Assembly (NCBI RefSeq): GCF_016805305.1
Contig: NZ_JAERQN010000003.1
Coordinates: 248,001-312,000 of the forward strand
Reading direction: 5' to 3'
DNA from: Falsiroseomonas ponticola
GTDB taxonomy: Bacteria > Pseudomonadota > Alphaproteobacteria > Acetobacterales > Acetobacteraceae
DNA length: 64,000 bases
Shown piece by piece: positions 30,922 to 40,418 of this stretch; the stretch's first letter is position 1, and each line of letters starts with the position of its first letter. The notes below the pieces were generated by a model. That model did not search any database, was not told the DNA's origin, and saw nothing but the letters and a program-made list of their open reading frames with translations. Both the position numbers and the translations under genes were made by a program.

Positions 30922-32648
<1,727 letters not shown>

Positions 32649-32654
32649 CCATCG

Positions 32655-32816
32655 GAGACCGCTTGAGAACGCCGGACGGGTCGGCTCCGCGGGTCTTTTC
32701 CGCCGCTGCGGCGTCAGCAGACTTGCCGATGCAACCAGCATCGGCGGCATCTGCTTCCTGGCAGCAACGAAAAATCCCCTGCGGACCCTCAGCCGCCGGC
32801 ATTCTCAAGCGGTCTC
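32655..32816. repeat. 162-bp imperfect palindrome (MITE-like or structured terminator)
   Basis: Ends are 21-bp inverted repeats with one mismatch: 32655-32675 begins GAGACCGCTTGAGAA and 32796-32816 ends TTCTCAAGCGGTCTC. The centre is GCCGATGC-AACCA-GCATCGGC (32725-32745). The intervening halves, 78 and 79 bp, still align to one another. It fills the gap between the convergent importer and RND operons, and its right end abuts the RND stop codon at 32817. Confidence 0.75.
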
Positions 32817-35800
32817 TCACGCCCGCGCGGTCAGCGCGGGCAGCTTCGCCCGCCTCGCGCCCGCCAGCCGCTCCAGCCCCAGATAGACGGCCGGGGTGGT
32901 GTAGAGCGTCAGCAGCTGGGAGACGATCAGCCCGCCGATGATGGTGATGCCGAGGGGCTGGCGCAGCTCCGCCCCCGGCCCGGTGGCCAGCGCCAGCGGC
33001 AGCGCGCCGAACAGCGCGGCCAGCGTCGTCATCAGGATGGGGCGGAAGCGTTCGCGGCAGGCTTCCAGGATGGCCGTCATGCCGCCCTCGCCGCCCTCCC
33101 GCTCATGCTCCAGCGCGAAATCCACCATCATGATGGCGTTCTTCTTCACGATGCCCATCAGCAGGATCACGCCGATCAGCGCGATGATGGTGAAGGGCGT
33201 GTTGGTGAACAGCAGCGCCAGCAGCGCGCCCACGCCGGCGGTCGGGATGGTGGAGATGATGGTCAGCGGGTGGATCAGGCTTTCGTAGAGCACGCCGAGC
33301 ACGATGTAGATCGCGACCAGCGCGGCCAGGATCAGCAGCGGCAGGCCGGACTGGAAGTTCTGGAAGGCACGGGCATTGCCGGCGAATTCGCCGCGGATGC
33401 TGCCGGGCATCTGGATGTCCAGCACCGCCTTCTCCACCAGCTCCGCCGCCTGGCCGAGGGTCGCGCCCTCGCCCAGGTTGAAGCTGATGGTGGCGGCGGG
33501 GAACAGGCCCTGATGGGTGATGGATCGCGGCGCCACCGTCCGCTCCAGCCGCACCAGCGAGCCGAGCGGCACCGGCCCCGCCGCGCCGGGCACGAAGATA
33601 CGTTGCAGGCCCTCGGGATTCTCGGTCAGCAGCGGGTCCACTTCCAGGATCACGCGGTACTGGTTGCGGGCGCGGTAGATGGTGGAGACCTGGCGCTGCG
33701 CGAAGGCGTTGTTCAGCGTGGCGCCCAGCGCCGCGACGGAGACGCCGAGCCGCGCCGCCGCATCGCGATCGATGACGAGGCGGGAGACGAGCCCCGTGCG
33801 CTGCTGGTCCGACGACACATCGGCCACCTGCGGGATGGTGCGCAGCTGCTGCACCAGCCGCTCGCTCCAGATGCCAAGCTCCTCCAGGTCCGGCGTCAGC
33901 AGCACATACTGGTAGGACCCGCTGGTGGACCGGCCGCCGATGTTGATGTCCTGCACCGGCCGCAGGAAGGTCTGCAGCCCCACGATGCGCGCAAGCGGCG
34001 CGCGCAGCCGCGCGATGACGCCATCGGCATTCAGCCCGCCCCGTTCCTCCTTCGGCTTCAGCGCGATCTGGATGCGGATGTTGCTGGAACTGCCGAAGAA
34101 GCCGCCGCCGCCGAGCGAGGCGGAGGCGCTTTCCACCGCCGGGTCGGCGCGCAGCACCTCCATCAGCCGCTGCTGGTACACCACCATCTGCTGGAAGGAG
34201 GTGTCGGGCTGCGCCTGGGCGGAGCCCTGCAGCAGGTTCGAATCCTGCGTCGGGATGAAGCCCTTCGGCACCACGGTGTAGAGCCAGACGGTCAGCGCGA
34301 CGAGGCCGAGGTTGAACAGCCAGGTCAGCACCCGGAAGCGCAGCACCACCACCAGGCTCTTCATGTAGCCGCGGATGATCCAGTCCAGCGCGGCCTCGAT
34401 GCCGCGGCCGATGCGCCCCTCGGGCTTCGGCTCCGCCCGCGCCAGATGCGCCGCCAGCATCGGCGTCACGGTCAGGGACACGATGGCGGAGATCGCGACG
34501 GCGATGGAGAGCGTCGCCGCGAATTCGCGGAACATGCGCCCCACGATCCCGCCCATGAACAGCAGCGGGATGAAGACCGCGATCAGCGACAGGCTCATCG
34601 ACACCACGGTGAAGCCGATCTGCCGCGCGCCTTCCAGCGCCGCCTTGATGGGCCGCATGCCGCGTTCCTGCATGCGGGCCATGTTCTCGATCATCACGAT
34701 GGCATCGTCCACGACGAAGCCCACCGAGATCGTCAGCGCCATCAGCGAGAGGTTGTTGAGCGAATAGCCCACCATCCACATGACGCCGAGCGTGCCGAGC
34801 AGCGACAGCGGCACGGCGATGCCGGCGGCGAACAGCGCCGATGGCTTGCGCAGGAAGACCGCCACCACCAGCACCACCAGCACGATGCTGATGAGCAGCG
34901 TGTGCTGCACCTCCGCGACCGAGGCGCGGATCGTCTCCGACCGGTCGCGCATGATGGTGACCTCGACGCCCGCCGGCATCCAGCGCTTCAGGTCCGGCAG
35001 CAGGGCGCGGATGCCGTCCACCACCTCCAGCACATTGGCGTCGGCCTGCTTGAAGATGGTCAGGATCACCGCCGGCTGGCCGTTGAAGGACCCGGATTGC
35101 CGGCGGTCCCGCGCCCCCTGTTCCACCCGCGCGATGGTATCGAGCCGCACCATCGCCCCATTCGCCTGGCGCACGATGATGGCGCCGAATTCCGCCGCAT
35201 CCTGCAGCCGGTCGTTCACGCTGATGGCCGCGGATTGCAGCGGACCTTCCAGCATGCCCGTCGCCTGGGTGACGTTGGCGGCCGTGATGGCGGTGCGGAT
35301 CTGGTCGAAGGAGACGCCCGCCGCCGTGGCCGCGGCCGGATCGACGGCGACGCGGATCGCGGGCTGCTCGGCGCCCGCGATATTGACCTGCGCCGTGCCA
35401 TCCACCTGCGACAGGCGCGGCACCACCACATTGTCGGCGGCGTCATAGAGCTGCCCCGGCGTCAGCGTGCTGGAGGTCAGCACCAGGATCAGCACCGGCG
35501 CGTCGCCCGGGTTCAGCTTCCGGAAGGTGGGCGTGTTGGTCAGGCCGGAGGGAAGGTCCGACATGGCCGCGTTGATCGCCGCCTGCACGTCCCGCGCCGC
35601 GCTCGCGATCGGGCGGCTCAGGTCGAACTGCACGATCACCGTCGCGCTGCCGAGGCTGGAGGTGGAGGTCAGCTCCGTCACCCCCGGTATCTCCCCCAGC
35701 CGCCGTTCCAGCGGCGCGGCGACGGAGGACGCCATGATGGCGGGATCGGCGCCGGGCTGGCTGGCGCTGACGGCGATGGTCGGGAAATCCACGCGCGGCA

Positions 35801-35909
35801 GCGGCGCGACCGGCAGGTTGAAGTAGGCGACGAGCCCCGCCAGCGCGAGCCCGATGGCCAGCAGCGTGGTGCCGATGGGCCGCGCGATGAAGGGGGCGGA
35901 GATCGACAC
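32817..35909 (-). CDS. mdtC: RND multidrug efflux pump (MdtC-like)
   Basis: 1,030 residues, full length for an inner-membrane RND pump. TM4 carries the proton-relay pair in GFVVDDAIVMIENMARM. Further pointers are the N-terminal MSISAPFIARPIGTTLLAIG and the late GIVKKNAIMMVDFAL. It is the last gene of a four-gene operon. The tandem of two distinct RND pumps after an adaptor matches MdtABC, whose pumps form a mixed trimer. The mdt name is by arrangement and family only. A 162-bp palindrome follows the stop. Confidence 0.9.
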   Translation of the reverse strand: MSISAPFIARPIGTTLLAIGLALAGLVAYFNLPVAPLPRVDFPTIAVSASQPGADPAIMASSVAAPLERRLGEIPGVTELTSTSSLGSATVIVQFDLSRPIASAARDVQAAINAAMSDLPSGLTNTPTFRKLNPGDAPVLILVLTSSTLTPGQLYDAADNVVVPRLSQVDGTAQVNIAGAEQPAIRVAVDPAAATAAGVSFDQIRTAITAANVTQATGMLEGPLQSAAISVNDRLQDAAEFGAIIVRQANGAMVRLDTIARVEQGARDRRQSGSFNGQPAVILTIFKQADANVLEVVDGIRALLPDLKRWMPAGVEVTIMRDRSETIRASVAEVQHTLLISIVLVVLVVAVFLRKPSALFAAGIAVPLSLLGTLGVMWMVGYSLNNLSLMALTISVGFVVDDAIVMIENMARMQERGMRPIKAALEGARQIGFTVVSMSLSLIAVFIPLLFMGGIVGRMFREFAATLSIAVAISAIVSLTVTPMLAAHLARAEPKPEGRIGRGIEAALDWIIRGYMKSLVVVLRFRVLTWLFNLGLVALTVWLYTVVPKGFIPTQDSNLLQGSAQAQPDTSFQQMVVYQQRLMEVLRADPAVESASASLGGGGFFGSSSNIRIQIALKPKEERGGLNADGVIARLRAPLARIVGLQTFLRPVQDINIGGRSTSGSYQYVLLTPDLEELGIWSERLVQQLRTIPQVADVSSDQQRTGLVSRLVIDRDAAARLGVSVAALGATLNNAFAQRQVSTIYRARNQYRVILEVDPLLTENPEGLQRIFVPGAAGPVPLGSLVRLERTVAPRSITHQGLFPAATISFNLGEGATLGQAAELVEKAVLDIQMPGSIRGEFAGNARAFQNFQSGLPLLILAALVAIYIVLGVLYESLIHPLTIISTIPTAGVGALLALLFTNTPFTIIALIGVILLMGIVKKNAIMMVDFALEHEREGGEGGMTAILEACRERFRPILMTTLAALFGALPLALATGPGAELRQPLGITIIGGLIVSQLLTLYTTPAVYLGLERLAGARRAKLPALTARA

Positions 35910-35912
35910 GCC

Positions 35913-38900
35913 CTACTCCGCCGCCGCCGGCGCCGCGCCGCGGAAGCGCCGCCCCACCCAGCCGCGCAAATCCTCCAGCGCCAGGTAGATGACCGGCGTG
36001 GTGTAGAGCGTGATGACCTGGCTCAGCAGCAGCCCGCCGATGACGGAAACGCCGAGCGGCAGCCGCAGCTCCGACCCCGCGCCATGGCCCAGCACCAGCG
36101 GCACCGCGCCCAGCAGCGCCGCCATCGTCGTCATCATGATGGGGCGGAAGCGCAGCAGGCAGGCTTCCCGGATCGCGTCGCGCGGGGACATGCCGTGGTC
36201 GCGCTGCGCCTCCAGCGCGAAGTCGATCATCATGATCGCGTTCTTCTTCACGATGCCCATCAGCAGCACGATGCCGATCAGCCCGAGCACCGAGAGGTCG
36301 AGCCCCACCATCATCAGCGCGACCAGCGCGCCGATGCCGGCGGAGGGCAGGGTGGAGAGGATGGTGATGGGGTGGACGACGCTTTCGTAGAGCACGCCGA
36401 GCACGATGTAGATGACGATGACGGCGGCCAGGATCAGCCAGCCCTGGCCGGCCAGGGACCGGTCGAATTCCGCCGCGTCGCCGCCGAAGCTTCCCCGCAT
36501 GGTGTCCGGCATGCCGAGCCTGGCCTGCATGGCGCGGATGGCCGTGACCGCCTGGCCGAGCGAGGCATCGGGCGCCAGGTTGAAGCTGAAGGTCACGGCC
36601 GGGAACTGGTCCTGCCGCGTGATGGTCAGCGGCCCGCTGCCGCGCGTGATGGTCGCGATCTCCGCCAGCGGCACCTGCGCCGCGATGCCGTTCGTCACCG
36701 TGCCCGGCACGCGCAGCAGGCCGATGGCGGCGGGGTCGTTCATCTGGCGCGGATCGGCTTCCAGCACCACGCGGTACTGGTTCGCCTGGCCGTAGATGGT
36801 GGAGATCTGCCGCTGGCCCAGCGCGTCATACAGCGCGTCGTCCACCGCCTGCATCGTGACGCCGAGCCGCGCGGCGCGGGCGCGGTCCACCTGCACCTGG
36901 ATGCGCAAGCCGTCCTCCCGCTGGTCGGACGCCACGTCCCGCAGCTCCGGGAGGTCCCGCAGCCCCGCCAGCAGCCGCGGCGCCCAGGCGCGCAGCTCAT
37001 CGGCCGCGGTGTCGGTCAGCGTGTACTGGTACTGCGTGCTGGAAGGCCGCGTGCCGATCTGGATGTCCTGCACGGGCTGGAGGTAGGCGACCACGCCCGG
37101 GATGCGCGCGATCTCCGGCGCCAGCCGGTCGATCACGGCGGAGACGTCGTCGCTGCGCTCCGTGCGCGGCCGCAGCACCGCCACCACGCGCCCCGTATTC
37201 TGCGCGGCATTCACCGTGCCGGCGCCGGCGACGGAGGCGACGGACACCACCTCCGCATCCCGCGCCACCACCTCCGCCACCTGGCGCTGCAGCTCCGCCA
37301 TGCGGGCGAAGGAGACGTCCTGCGGCGCCTCCGTCGTGATGGCGATGATCCCGGTATCCTGCAGCGGCAGGAAGCCCTTCGGCATCACGACATAGAGCCA
37401 GATCGTCCCGCCCAGCGTCGCCACCGCGATGGCCAGCATCAGCCCTTCCCGCGCCAGCGCCCAGTCCAGCGTGCGGGCATAGAGGCGCCGCAGCCATTCG
37501 AAGCCGGCCTCGAAGGCGCGGTTGACGATGCCGGGCTTCTCCTCCGCCTGCGGGCGCAGCAGCAGGCCGCACATCATCGGCGTCAAGGTCAGCGACACGA
37601 TCATGGAGACGACGACCGAGATCGTCAGCACGATGGCGAATTCGCGGAACAGCCGCCCGACCACGCCTTCCATGAACAGCAGCGGGATGAAGACGGCGAC
37701 GAGGGAGACGGTGAGGGAGACGATGGTGAAGCCGATCTGCTTCGCCCCCTCGAAGGCCGCGTCCAGCGGCTTCTTCCCCTCCTCGATCAGGCGGACGATG
37801 TTCTCGATCATCACGATCGCGTCGTCCACCACGAAGCCCGTCGCGATGGTCAGCGCCATCAGGGAGAGGTTGTCGAGCGAATAGCCGCACAGCGCCATCA
37901 CGCCGAAGGTGCCGATGATGGACAGCGGCAGCGCCACCCCCGGCACCACGGTCGCCCGCGCGCTGCGCAGGAACAGGAAGATCACCGCCACCACCAGCAC
38001 GACGGAGAGCACCAGGGTGAACTGCACCTCCTCCACCGAGGCGCGGATCGTCTCCGTCCGGTCGGAGACGACGGAAAGCTGCACGCCGGCCGGCAGCGCC
38101 CGTTCCAGGTTGGCCAGCTGCGCCCGCACCAGCTCCACCGTGCGGACGATGTTGGCGCCGGGCTGGCGCTGCACGTCGATCAGCACCGCGGGCCGGCCAT
38201 TGTACCAGGCGGCGGTCAGCGTGTTCTCCAGGTCCTCCACCGCCGCGCCCACGTCGCGCAGCCGCACCGGCGCCTCGTCCCGCCAGGCGACGATCAGGTC
38301 GTTGAAGGCGGCGGGGGAGGAGATCTGGTCATTCGCCATGATGGCGGAAGCCTGCTGCGGCCCGTCGATGGAGCCCTTCGGCCCCGCGACATTGGCCGCC
38401 GCGACGGCGGTGCGCACGGTGGACAGGCCGATGCCATAGGCCGCGAGCCGCTGCGGATCGACCTGCAGCCGCACCGCCGGGCGCATGTTGCCCTGCACCG
38501 CCACGCGCCCCACGCCCGTCACCTGCGACAGGCGCTGCGCCAGCAGCGTGTCCACCACATCGGACAGCCGCGCGGTCGGCAGCGTGTCCGATGTCAGCGC
38601 CAGGGTCATGATGGGCGGGTCCGCCGGGTTCACCTTCTGGTAGGTGGGCGGATAGGGCAGGTTGGAGGGCAGGGTGCCCCGCGCCGCGTTGATGGCGGAC
38701 TGCACATCCTGCGCCGCATCGTCGATGTCACGCCCCAGGTTGAACTGCAGCGTGATGCGGGAGACGGAGGGCCCGCTGACGGAGACCATCTCCGACAGCC
38801 CCGCGATCTGCGCCAATTGCCGCTCCAGCGATGCCGTGACCAGCACCGCGACCGTGTCGGGGGAGGCGCCGGGCAGCTGCGTCGTCACCTGGATGGTCGG

Positions 38901-39026
38901 GAAATCCACCTCCGGCAGGGAGGAGACCGGCAGGCGCAGATAGCCATAGAGGCCCGCCAGCAGCACCGCGACCGCCAGCAGGAAGGTCGCGATGGGCCGC
39001 GCGATGAAGGGGGCGGAGATGTTCAT
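35913..39026 (-). CDS. mdtB: RND multidrug efflux pump (MdtB-like)
   Basis: 1,037 residues. TM4 has GFVVDDAIVMIENIVRL, with paired Asp for proton translocation, and MNISAPFIARPIATFLLAVA opens the protein. It ends 3 bp before the second pump gene, so the two are co-translated. Both are of the HAE1/MdtBC branch rather than the CzcA heavy-metal branch. The substrates are probably hydrophobic or bile-salt-like compounds, inferred from family. Confidence 0.9.
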   Translation of the reverse strand: MNISAPFIARPIATFLLAVAVLLAGLYGYLRLPVSSLPEVDFPTIQVTTQLPGASPDTVAVLVTASLERQLAQIAGLSEMVSVSGPSVSRITLQFNLGRDIDDAAQDVQSAINAARGTLPSNLPYPPTYQKVNPADPPIMTLALTSDTLPTARLSDVVDTLLAQRLSQVTGVGRVAVQGNMRPAVRLQVDPQRLAAYGIGLSTVRTAVAAANVAGPKGSIDGPQQASAIMANDQISSPAAFNDLIVAWRDEAPVRLRDVGAAVEDLENTLTAAWYNGRPAVLIDVQRQPGANIVRTVELVRAQLANLERALPAGVQLSVVSDRTETIRASVEEVQFTLVLSVVLVVAVIFLFLRSARATVVPGVALPLSIIGTFGVMALCGYSLDNLSLMALTIATGFVVDDAIVMIENIVRLIEEGKKPLDAAFEGAKQIGFTIVSLTVSLVAVFIPLLFMEGVVGRLFREFAIVLTISVVVSMIVSLTLTPMMCGLLLRPQAEEKPGIVNRAFEAGFEWLRRLYARTLDWALAREGLMLAIAVATLGGTIWLYVVMPKGFLPLQDTGIIAITTEAPQDVSFARMAELQRQVAEVVARDAEVVSVASVAGAGTVNAAQNTGRVVAVLRPRTERSDDVSAVIDRLAPEIARIPGVVAYLQPVQDIQIGTRPSSTQYQYTLTDTAADELRAWAPRLLAGLRDLPELRDVASDQREDGLRIQVQVDRARAARLGVTMQAVDDALYDALGQRQISTIYGQANQYRVVLEADPRQMNDPAAIGLLRVPGTVTNGIAAQVPLAEIATITRGSGPLTITRQDQFPAVTFSFNLAPDASLGQAVTAIRAMQARLGMPDTMRGSFGGDAAEFDRSLAGQGWLILAAVIVIYIVLGVLYESVVHPITILSTLPSAGIGALVALMMVGLDLSVLGLIGIVLLMGIVKKNAIMMIDFALEAQRDHGMSPRDAIREACLLRFRPIMMTTMAALLGAVPLVLGHGAGSELRLPLGVSVIGGLLLSQVITLYTTPVIYLALEDLRGWVGRRFRGAAPAAAE

Positions 39027-39032
39027 GCCCGG

Positions 39033-40418
39033 TCAGGGCCGCGCCGGCGCGGGCGCCTCGGCCGGCGGGGTGGCGGGCGCCGCCGGGGCCGCCGCCGGTG
39101 CCGCCGCCGGGGCCTGTTGCGGCCGCCGCCGCGCCTGCGGCACGGAAGGCGGCGGCCGCACGGGTTCGGCCACCTGCACCAGGCTGCCATTCACCAGGCG
39201 CAGCGCGCCCGATGTCACCGCGCGTTCCCCGGGCCGCATGCCCGCCAGCACCACCGCCTGCGTGCCGGCGATGGTGCCGATCGTGATGTTGCGCTGCTCC
39301 ACCGTGCTGTCGTCCCGCACCACGAAGGCGTAGGGCCCCTGCGGCCCGCGCTGCACGGCCACCAGCGGCAGCACCGTCACGCCGCGCAGCACCGCCACCT
39401 GGATGCGCGTATTGACGAAGGCGCCCGGCCACAGGCGCTGGTCCTCGTTCGGGAAGGTCGCCTTGACGCGGATCGTCCCGGTGGCGCTGTCCACCTGGTT
39501 GTCGATGGTGACCACCTGGCCGATCGGGTTGGGCGGCTGGGGGGAGCCATCCAGCCGCGGCGGCGCATTCTCCGCCAGGCGCGCCTCCACCGGCACCGGC
39601 CCCGCGGCCAGCGCCTGCATCACCTGCGGCAGCGTCTGCTGCGGCAGGGTGAAGTTCACCGTGATGGGGCGCAGCTGCGTCACCACCACGATCCCCGTGG
39701 TGCTGCTGGAGGAGACGAGGTTGCCGATATCCACCTGCCGCAGCCCGACGCGGCCCTCGATGGGCGAGCGGATCGTCGCGTAGTCCAGCTGCGTGCGCGC
39801 GGCCTCGATGGTGGCCTGGTCGAACAGCACCTGCGCTTCCAGCTGCGCCACCTGGGCGCGCTGGGTATCGACCGTCTGCTGGGAGGTGCCGTTGCTGCGC
39901 AGCAGCTGCTGGTAGCGCGTCAGGTCCAGCCGCGCATTGGCCAGCTGCGCCTCCCGCTGCGCCTTGGTGGCCAGCGCCTGGTCCAGCGTCGCCTGGAAGC
40001 TGCGCGGATCGATGCGCACCAGCACGTCGCCCGCCTTCACCTCCTGCCCCTCGCGGAACGCGATCTCCGTGATGCGGCCGGAGACCTGCGGCACCACGGT
40101 GATGGTGTTGGAGGCCTGCACGGTGCCCAGCGCATCCAGCAGGATGGGCAGGTCCTCCACGCTGGCGGCGGCGGCGGTGACGGGGATGGCGGGCGCGGCG
40201 CCGCCGGCGCGGCGCAGGCCGGGCTGGCCGGGCGGCGGCGGCGCCTGCACCGCGGGCGCGAAGGGCGGCAGCCCGGCCTGCCAGGCATGGAAGGCGCCGC
40301 CACCCGCGATGGCGGCCAGCCCGGCCAGCAGCCAGGGCCAGCGCCGCCGGCGCGCCCGGACCGGCGTGGCCAGCTTCGTCTCCGCCGGGGCGGGCGGGGT
40401 CTTCGGGACTTCGTTCAT
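39033..40418 (-). CDS. mdtA: RND efflux periplasmic adaptor (MdtA-like)
   Basis: 461 residues from ATG 40418, which overlaps the outer-membrane factor stop as ATGA. An N-terminal anchor (RRRRWPWLLAGLAAIAGGGAF) is followed by a lipoyl half-motif (VVPQVSGRITEIAFREGQEV). A coiled-coil hairpin (about 145-215; KAQREAQLANARLDLTRYQQ region) comes next, and then the second lipoyl half IRSPIEGRVGLRQV and beta-barrel. The C-terminus is a Pro/Ala-rich tail of about 40 residues. It bridges the pumps to the outer-membrane factor. Confidence 0.93.
   Translation of the reverse strand: MNEVPKTPPAPAETKLATPVRARRRRWPWLLAGLAAIAGGGAFHAWQAGLPPFAPAVQAPPPPGQPGLRRAGGAAPAIPVTAAAASVEDLPILLDALGTVQASNTITVVPQVSGRITEIAFREGQEVKAGDVLVRIDPRSFQATLDQALATKAQREAQLANARLDLTRYQQLLRSNGTSQQTVDTQRAQVAQLEAQVLFDQATIEAARTQLDYATIRSPIEGRVGLRQVDIGNLVSSSSTTGIVVVTQLRPITVNFTLPQQTLPQVMQALAAGPVPVEARLAENAPPRLDGSPQPPNPIGQVVTIDNQVDSATGTIRVKATFPNEDQRLWPGAFVNTRIQVAVLRGVTVLPLVAVQRGPQGPYAFVVRDDSTVEQRNITIGTIAGTQAVVLAGMRPGERAVTSGALRLVNGSLVQVAEPVRPPPSVPQARRRPQQAPAAAPAAAPAAPATPPAEAPAPARP

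Follow-up and report, generated by a model that had tools for sequence, protein, structure and literature searches.

A 162-bp palindrome on the stop codon of an RND transporter gene in Falsiroseomonas is very probably a MITE of IS5-family insertion sequences

What kind of sequence is the 162-bp imperfect palindrome that lies between two transporter genes of Falsiroseomonas ponticola, at 32655..32816 of the window (the whole 64,000-nucleotide stretch of DNA that was analysed)? An earlier note, made from the letters alone, had proposed either a MITE or a very long terminator hairpin. Direct reading and a repeat finder confirmed the exact edges of the palindrome, which in the orientation of the window (+ strand) coincide with the edges of other copies; the repeat finder returned a single inverted pair with the same outer edges, whose arms of 39 nt are 77% complementary and have 84 nt between them. 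As the note had described, 21-bp terminal inverted repeats bound the element, the left one (GAGACCGCTTGAGAACGCCGG, read directly on the + strand at 32655..32675) differing by one mismatch from the reverse complement of the right one (- strand, 32796..32816), and a perfect 8-bp stem, GCCGATGC/GCATCGGC, occupies its centre at 32725-32732 and 32738-32745 around the loop AACCA. The interval 32725..32745 is also the most uniform stretch of the whole family, as judged from 56 copies found by similarity, with motif-found copies excluded. The first 15 bp of the left repeat, GAGACCGCTTGAGAA, are one base off the termini of intact members of the IS5 family such as L081, which is described below. At 162 bp, with terminal inverted repeats, the element is short and contains no gene, and there is no room in it for a transposase of about 274 amino acids.

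Genes were called with a codon-usage caller trained on seven window genes, which returned 55 genes covering 92% of the window. On the left, a peptide ABC transporter ATPase gene with two ABC domains (30951..32648, + strand) ends 6 bp before the element. On the right, the element adjoins the stop codon of an RND (AcrB/AcrD/AcrF) transporter gene (32817..35909, - strand), as had been noticed earlier; the codon reads TCA at 32817-32819. This gene belongs to a stretch of the - strand, 32817-40418, that contains two adjacent RND transporter genes and a neighbouring HlyD-type adaptor gene.

The region 32640-32830 is predicted to fold as RNA far more stably than shuffled sequence on both strands (z = -7.2 for the + strand and z = -10.1 for the - strand, with 0/200 dinucleotide-preserving shuffles as strong in each case). 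A consensus scan of 32400-33100 detected 0 terminator-like sites (mean of 0.1 in shuffles) and 0 promoter-like sites, and the GC-rich hairpin followed by a run of T that marks an intrinsic terminator is absent from the element. No Rfam family reaches its gathering score, and a known RNA family was discarded as a candidate because the sole match at E <= 1, isrG, scored 13.1 bits, far below the gathering score of 100. Of the two possibilities in the earlier note, the terminator is not supported, on these grounds and because a strand bias in wobble pairing ignores the direction of the neighbouring gene (see below), whereas the MITE is supported by the copies, TNA duplications, empty sites and insertion-sequence ends described below. 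An effect of the element on transcript ends is possible.

The note had made its reading depend on other copies, or on conserved structure in relatives; copies were found, and pairing is conserved among them. The palindrome occurs at 14 places in its own 6.7-Mb genome, a fifteenth row being the self-match of the palindrome on the opposite strand, and at least 27 matches were found in the genome G004, so that the many dispersed copies characteristic of a MITE are present. Among the matches listed, 15 of the 30 relative genomes searched contain the palindrome: its own, 13 of the 14 remaining genomes from the genus, and a single one from another genus. Across the bacterial family, at least 62/397 genomes and at least 24/102 genera match at E <= 0.001, own included, counts that are lower bounds since the best two candidates per genome were scored; many of the weaker matches in this search are short. 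The species genome collection contains the exact 24-base centre in 83 stretches, with titles that include Falsiroseomonas, Plastoroseomonas, Belnapia, Paracraurococcus and Roseococcus, and also in metagenome bins, some labelled just Alphaproteobacteria or bacterium. A collection of 72,556 plasmid records yielded no match to the palindrome and viral contigs yielded 0 exact matches to the 24-base centre, which led us to reject plasmid or phage cargo. Our search of open-licence papers found no description of this MITE family, and 0 such papers contained the end and centre sequences as text.

From the matches in the own genome and the genus, 60 regions were picked by hand, with long matches favoured. 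Copy identity in the own genome has a median of 0.875, a value in which some comparisons set one place against itself. In G011 the copies at eight different places reach a median identity of 0.93 and a maximum of 0.988, which suggests that movement there was fairly recent. Two of the 14 places in the own genome, L034 (1-224, at the start of contig C7) and L038 (402-594, near the end of contig C23), look like the parts of one copy into which a different insertion sequence has jumped: each apparent half breaks into a similar foreign end like GAGCGTGATC, and both outer flanks are TGA.

Target duplications, which the earlier note had suggested looking for, are present as a 3-bp duplication of the form TNA. 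The test used 96 of 143 unique copies, matched end to end and with ends taken from the profile without adjustment; the other 47 either matched short of both ends or lay too close to a contig end. The outer three bases are equal in 40/96 copies, compared with a mean of 12.9 and a maximum of 23 in 2000 random pairings and with 0 to 11 copies at other offsets. The length of the duplication is fixed at 3 bp, with no copy equal at 4 bp or more, and in 56/96 copies the three-base flanks are now unequal. TNA forms the left flank in 57/96 copies and the right flank in 68/96 (0-5 at other offsets), and just outside it stand a C on the left (68 copies) and a G on the right (58 copies), which makes CTNAG the preferred context. 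At the window site, the left copy of the duplication (32652..32654) now reads TCG, and the right copy (32817..32819) is TCA, the reverse complement of the TGA with which the RND gene stops. In G012 the left copy is still TCA and the element follows directly after it, in a copy that gives way to other DNA close to its right end and at a site split across two contigs. The sister genomes G013 and G004 have an empty site with a single TCA, and at a second site, L004, the element is missing from G012 and G004. We propose that the window copy landed on the RND stop codon in a common ancestor of this genome and G012, the site being empty in G013 and G004.

Full-length partners with the same ends were found in other genera among these relatives of the acetic acid bacteria. 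The insertion sequence L074 (892 bp) is bounded at both ends by GTGACCGTTTGAGAA and L081 (898 bp) by GAGACCGTTTGAGAA; both are flanked by TTA/TTA, have an open transposase frame and match MITE ends over 15/15 bp on both sides, and copies of the MITE family show both of these end types. In three further loci (L073, L075 and L080) one end is identical, the other is within one base and the TNA flanks are equal; at L078 both ends match exactly, the two flanks differ from each other and a stop interrupts the transposase frame. In the genus itself, the transposase of L062 in G004 lies between two such ends, one of them one base off, and the locus is flanked by TCA and TAA; L053 in G003 shows a single end of this kind. 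NCBIfam NF033580, with 240 bits (cut-off 110), and Pfam PF13340 and PF01609, both above cut-off, identify the L062 protein as an IS5-family DDE transposase. DUF4096 transposases were collected from relatives, and relatives of the L062 protein were then sought across the family genomes, where at least 174/397 contain them, the best six candidates per genome being scored. The own genome, G011 and G012, each with many copies of the MITE, have no transposase match at E <= 1e-30 among the best six candidates per genome. Of 22 near-exact ends in the own genome, 16 form eight inverted pairs spanning 161-185 bp and six are single; none of these pairs is long enough for a transposase. A DDE_Tnp_1 match (L070) and two DUF4096 matches (L049 and L060) in the own genome were rejected as partners, being without such ends. 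A transposase with matching ends, which the earlier note had suggested looking for, was found in L074 and L081 of other genera and is lacking among the best six candidates of the own genome. At E <= 0.001 the interior of the MITE matches nothing in the insertion-sequence loci, and the likeness is confined to the outermost bases.

The IS1031 group of the IS5 family is known for a TNA target and for ends beginning GAG. With a single ORF of 274-278 amino acids and 3-bp duplications, L074 and L081 match the outline of the group in PMC2516522, where one ORF and a target of three nucleotides are named as shared by its members. The copies, the 3-bp TNA duplication, the empty orthologous sites and the insertion sequences with identical ends together argue that the element is a non-autonomous MITE of the IS1031-type insertion sequences in the IS5 family, a reading to which we give a probability of roughly 0.93, with the group assigned from the single ORF and the three target nucleotides. 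In this scheme the transposase of a full-length relative would act on the ends of the element, which would insert at TNA, preferably in a CTNAG context, with duplication of three bases. From the sequences, an IS5-family transposase of this kind probably moved the element.

The position of the window copy on a stop codon is common in the family. Among 95 copies (one more was dropped for short flanks), 52, including that of the window, have the stop codon of a neighbouring gene as the triplet directly next to the element, and 15 further gene ends fall within the element in 11 other copies. For 19 of these 52, the duplication has lost its TNA form on the far side and still reads as a stop on the gene side. 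As background, stop codons account for 267/1586 of the non-coding TNA sites in these flanks. Copies flanked by TNA are at stops in 50/78 cases, compared with a target-weighted expectation of 0.289 for which the weights were learned from copies away from stops; after merging five orthologous pairs the count is 46/74 (p = 2.9e-9). Within strict CTNAG, 21/29 copies are at stops, compared with 45/107 in the background (p = 0.0009). Since the excess persists after target weighting and within CTNAG, it is due partly to target preference and partly not. A search for the same seat in 22 insertion sequences, genes being callable beside few of them, did not reveal it. TNA words are all stop codons on one strand, TAA and TGA directly and TTA and TCA when reversed, and landing there therefore duplicates the codon and the gene stays whole. 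An insertion on a stop codon would leave a stop in place, and copies seated on stops would be kept because the gene remains whole. We infer that the excess arose because insertions that do no harm survive, and not through targeting. That the transposase actively seeks out gene ends is in our judgement improbable: such targeting would account for the excess that survives both corrections, but called genes contain 0/95 copies, a sign that selection has filtered insertions, and stops and intergenic TNA sites may differ in harm, so that survival alone can give the excess.

The two arms of the palindrome change in a coordinated manner. Covariation was assessed over 62 pairs in 56 copies, with 37 of the 93 aligned copies left out on account of their origin in an exact-motif scan, and 230 cells are changed yet paired, compared with a mean of 56 and a maximum of 74 after shuffling. 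On a tree built from the same columns as the counts, which makes the numbers of changes rough, there are 90 pair-to-pair double changes, 45 of them transversions; 13 double changes end unpaired and three in wobble, and among single changes 96 break a pair and 128 give wobble on one strand. Double changes on the same branch lie near each other in 17 cases, compared with a shuffled mean of 11.1, a value reached by 32/2000 shuffles, and this clustering hints at template switching, a known process that homogenises palindrome arms (PMC8794818). Template switching between the arms would keep the palindrome and fits the pattern without invoking RNA. A strand bias is also apparent: in 92/93 aligned copies the - strand gives the better fold of the two, and G-U pairs are in excess on the - strand in 37 columns and on the + strand in 14 (p = 0.0018). 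This modest wobble bias is real yet independent of the strand of the neighbouring gene (Fisher p = 0.45), and the idea of an RNA read from one strand was dropped because the bias does not follow reading direction.

These data bear on the alternative that the hairpin is kept by host use, as a bidirectional transcript end or an mRNA-protecting 3' hairpin, above all between convergent genes, a view that allows for a MITE origin. Such use would agree with the conservation of pairing through double changes and with the strand bias, and also with the arrangement of the neighbours, which are convergent for 31/92 copies and divergent for 11/92, compared with 43/290 and 49/290 gene pairs in the same flanks. 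We nevertheless regard it as rather unlikely, since the wobble bias is unrelated to the direction of the adjacent gene, the gene donating the stop is on the + strand in 24 copies and on the - strand in 28, the transversions that make up half of the pair-to-pair changes have no possible G-U intermediate, and the element has no terminator-like site. Similar size, a full-length palindrome and an extragenic position, as described for such repeats in PMC2229807, would also suit a REP- or ERIC-type extragenic palindrome spread in another way, for instance by a RAYT (Y1) transposase; the 3-bp TNA duplication and the ends in common with IS5-family DDE transposons speak against this origin, to which we give very little credence.

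Within the MITE family, some copies share the core and differ in their ends. G003 contains six pairs of GAGCCTGACCC-type ends, 161-162 bp apart and coinciding with core matches, and no such pairs were found in the other four genomes searched. When three copies with GAGCCTGACCC ends were compared with the main G003 copies, the ends were 0.58 and the core 0.79 identical (medians of 27 comparisons, some of which set one place against itself). Further end types occur in other genera (L172 and L174-L178), and the five genomes searched contain no transposon-sized inverted pair with GAGCCTGACCC ends. Judged by sequence, the pattern would fit ends that follow the local transposase. A bolder and distinctly doubtful idea is that the core hairpin is a durable gene-3'-end module, passed among IS5-type transposases by joint change of both ends and retained on stops because it suits or serves the transcript end.

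Copies also vary in size. Exact element ends in inverted orientation lie only 56-59 bp apart at G003:C58:2939-2997 and G002:C103:35323-35378, and these pairs are perhaps still smaller deletion derivatives. Longer copies of 185-213 bp, against the usual 161-162, were seen at L157, L158, L109, L134, L139, L145, L168 and L020; in L157 and L158 about 24 bp are added in the left arm and contain a small hairpin of their own.

The family provides a concrete case in which the target word of a transposon, TNA, coincides with stop codons on either strand. This overlap offers a simple and testable reason for small palindromes to be found at gene 3' ends in GC-rich bacteria, with no function assumed, and about a hundred diverged copies provide material on how long palindromes keep their arms matched. 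The repeat also marks the ends of several draft contigs in the genus, among the matches listed.

Among known systems, the element resembles the IS1031 group of the IS5 family in its ends, identical over 15/15 bp to those of L074 and L081, and in its 3-bp TNA duplication, and differs in having no transposase gene and an inner part unrelated to the insertion-sequence loci; an IS1031-group element of 893 bp, near the 892-898 bp of L074 and L081, is among those tabulated in PMC3196728. Like RUP of pneumococcus (107 bp), as portrayed in PMC2229807, it is a small repeat without a gene whose ends match those of the presumed mobilising insertion sequence, although RUP is associated with IS630-Spn1 and TA targets and the MITE described here with the IS5 family and TNA. 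ERIC (127 bp) and Correia/NEMIS are likewise dispersed long palindromes in gene-poor gaps by the description in PMC2229807, where the RNA hairpins of NEMIS are proposed to affect neighbouring mRNA; these repeats differ in bacterial host, sequence and target. QMITE2 of Coxiella burnetii comes close in size (150-190 bp), in its stable stem and in its location mainly in 3' untranslated regions, and one copy alters the stop of a gene (PMC5896051). By that account, QMITE2 has duplications of 7-11 nt that are variable in sequence and not TNA, and the passages on QMITE1 and QMITE2 describe no general seat on stop codons. The present element is thus a MITE of a kind already known, and its seat on stop codons and the exchange of its ends go beyond the routine and merit specialist attention.
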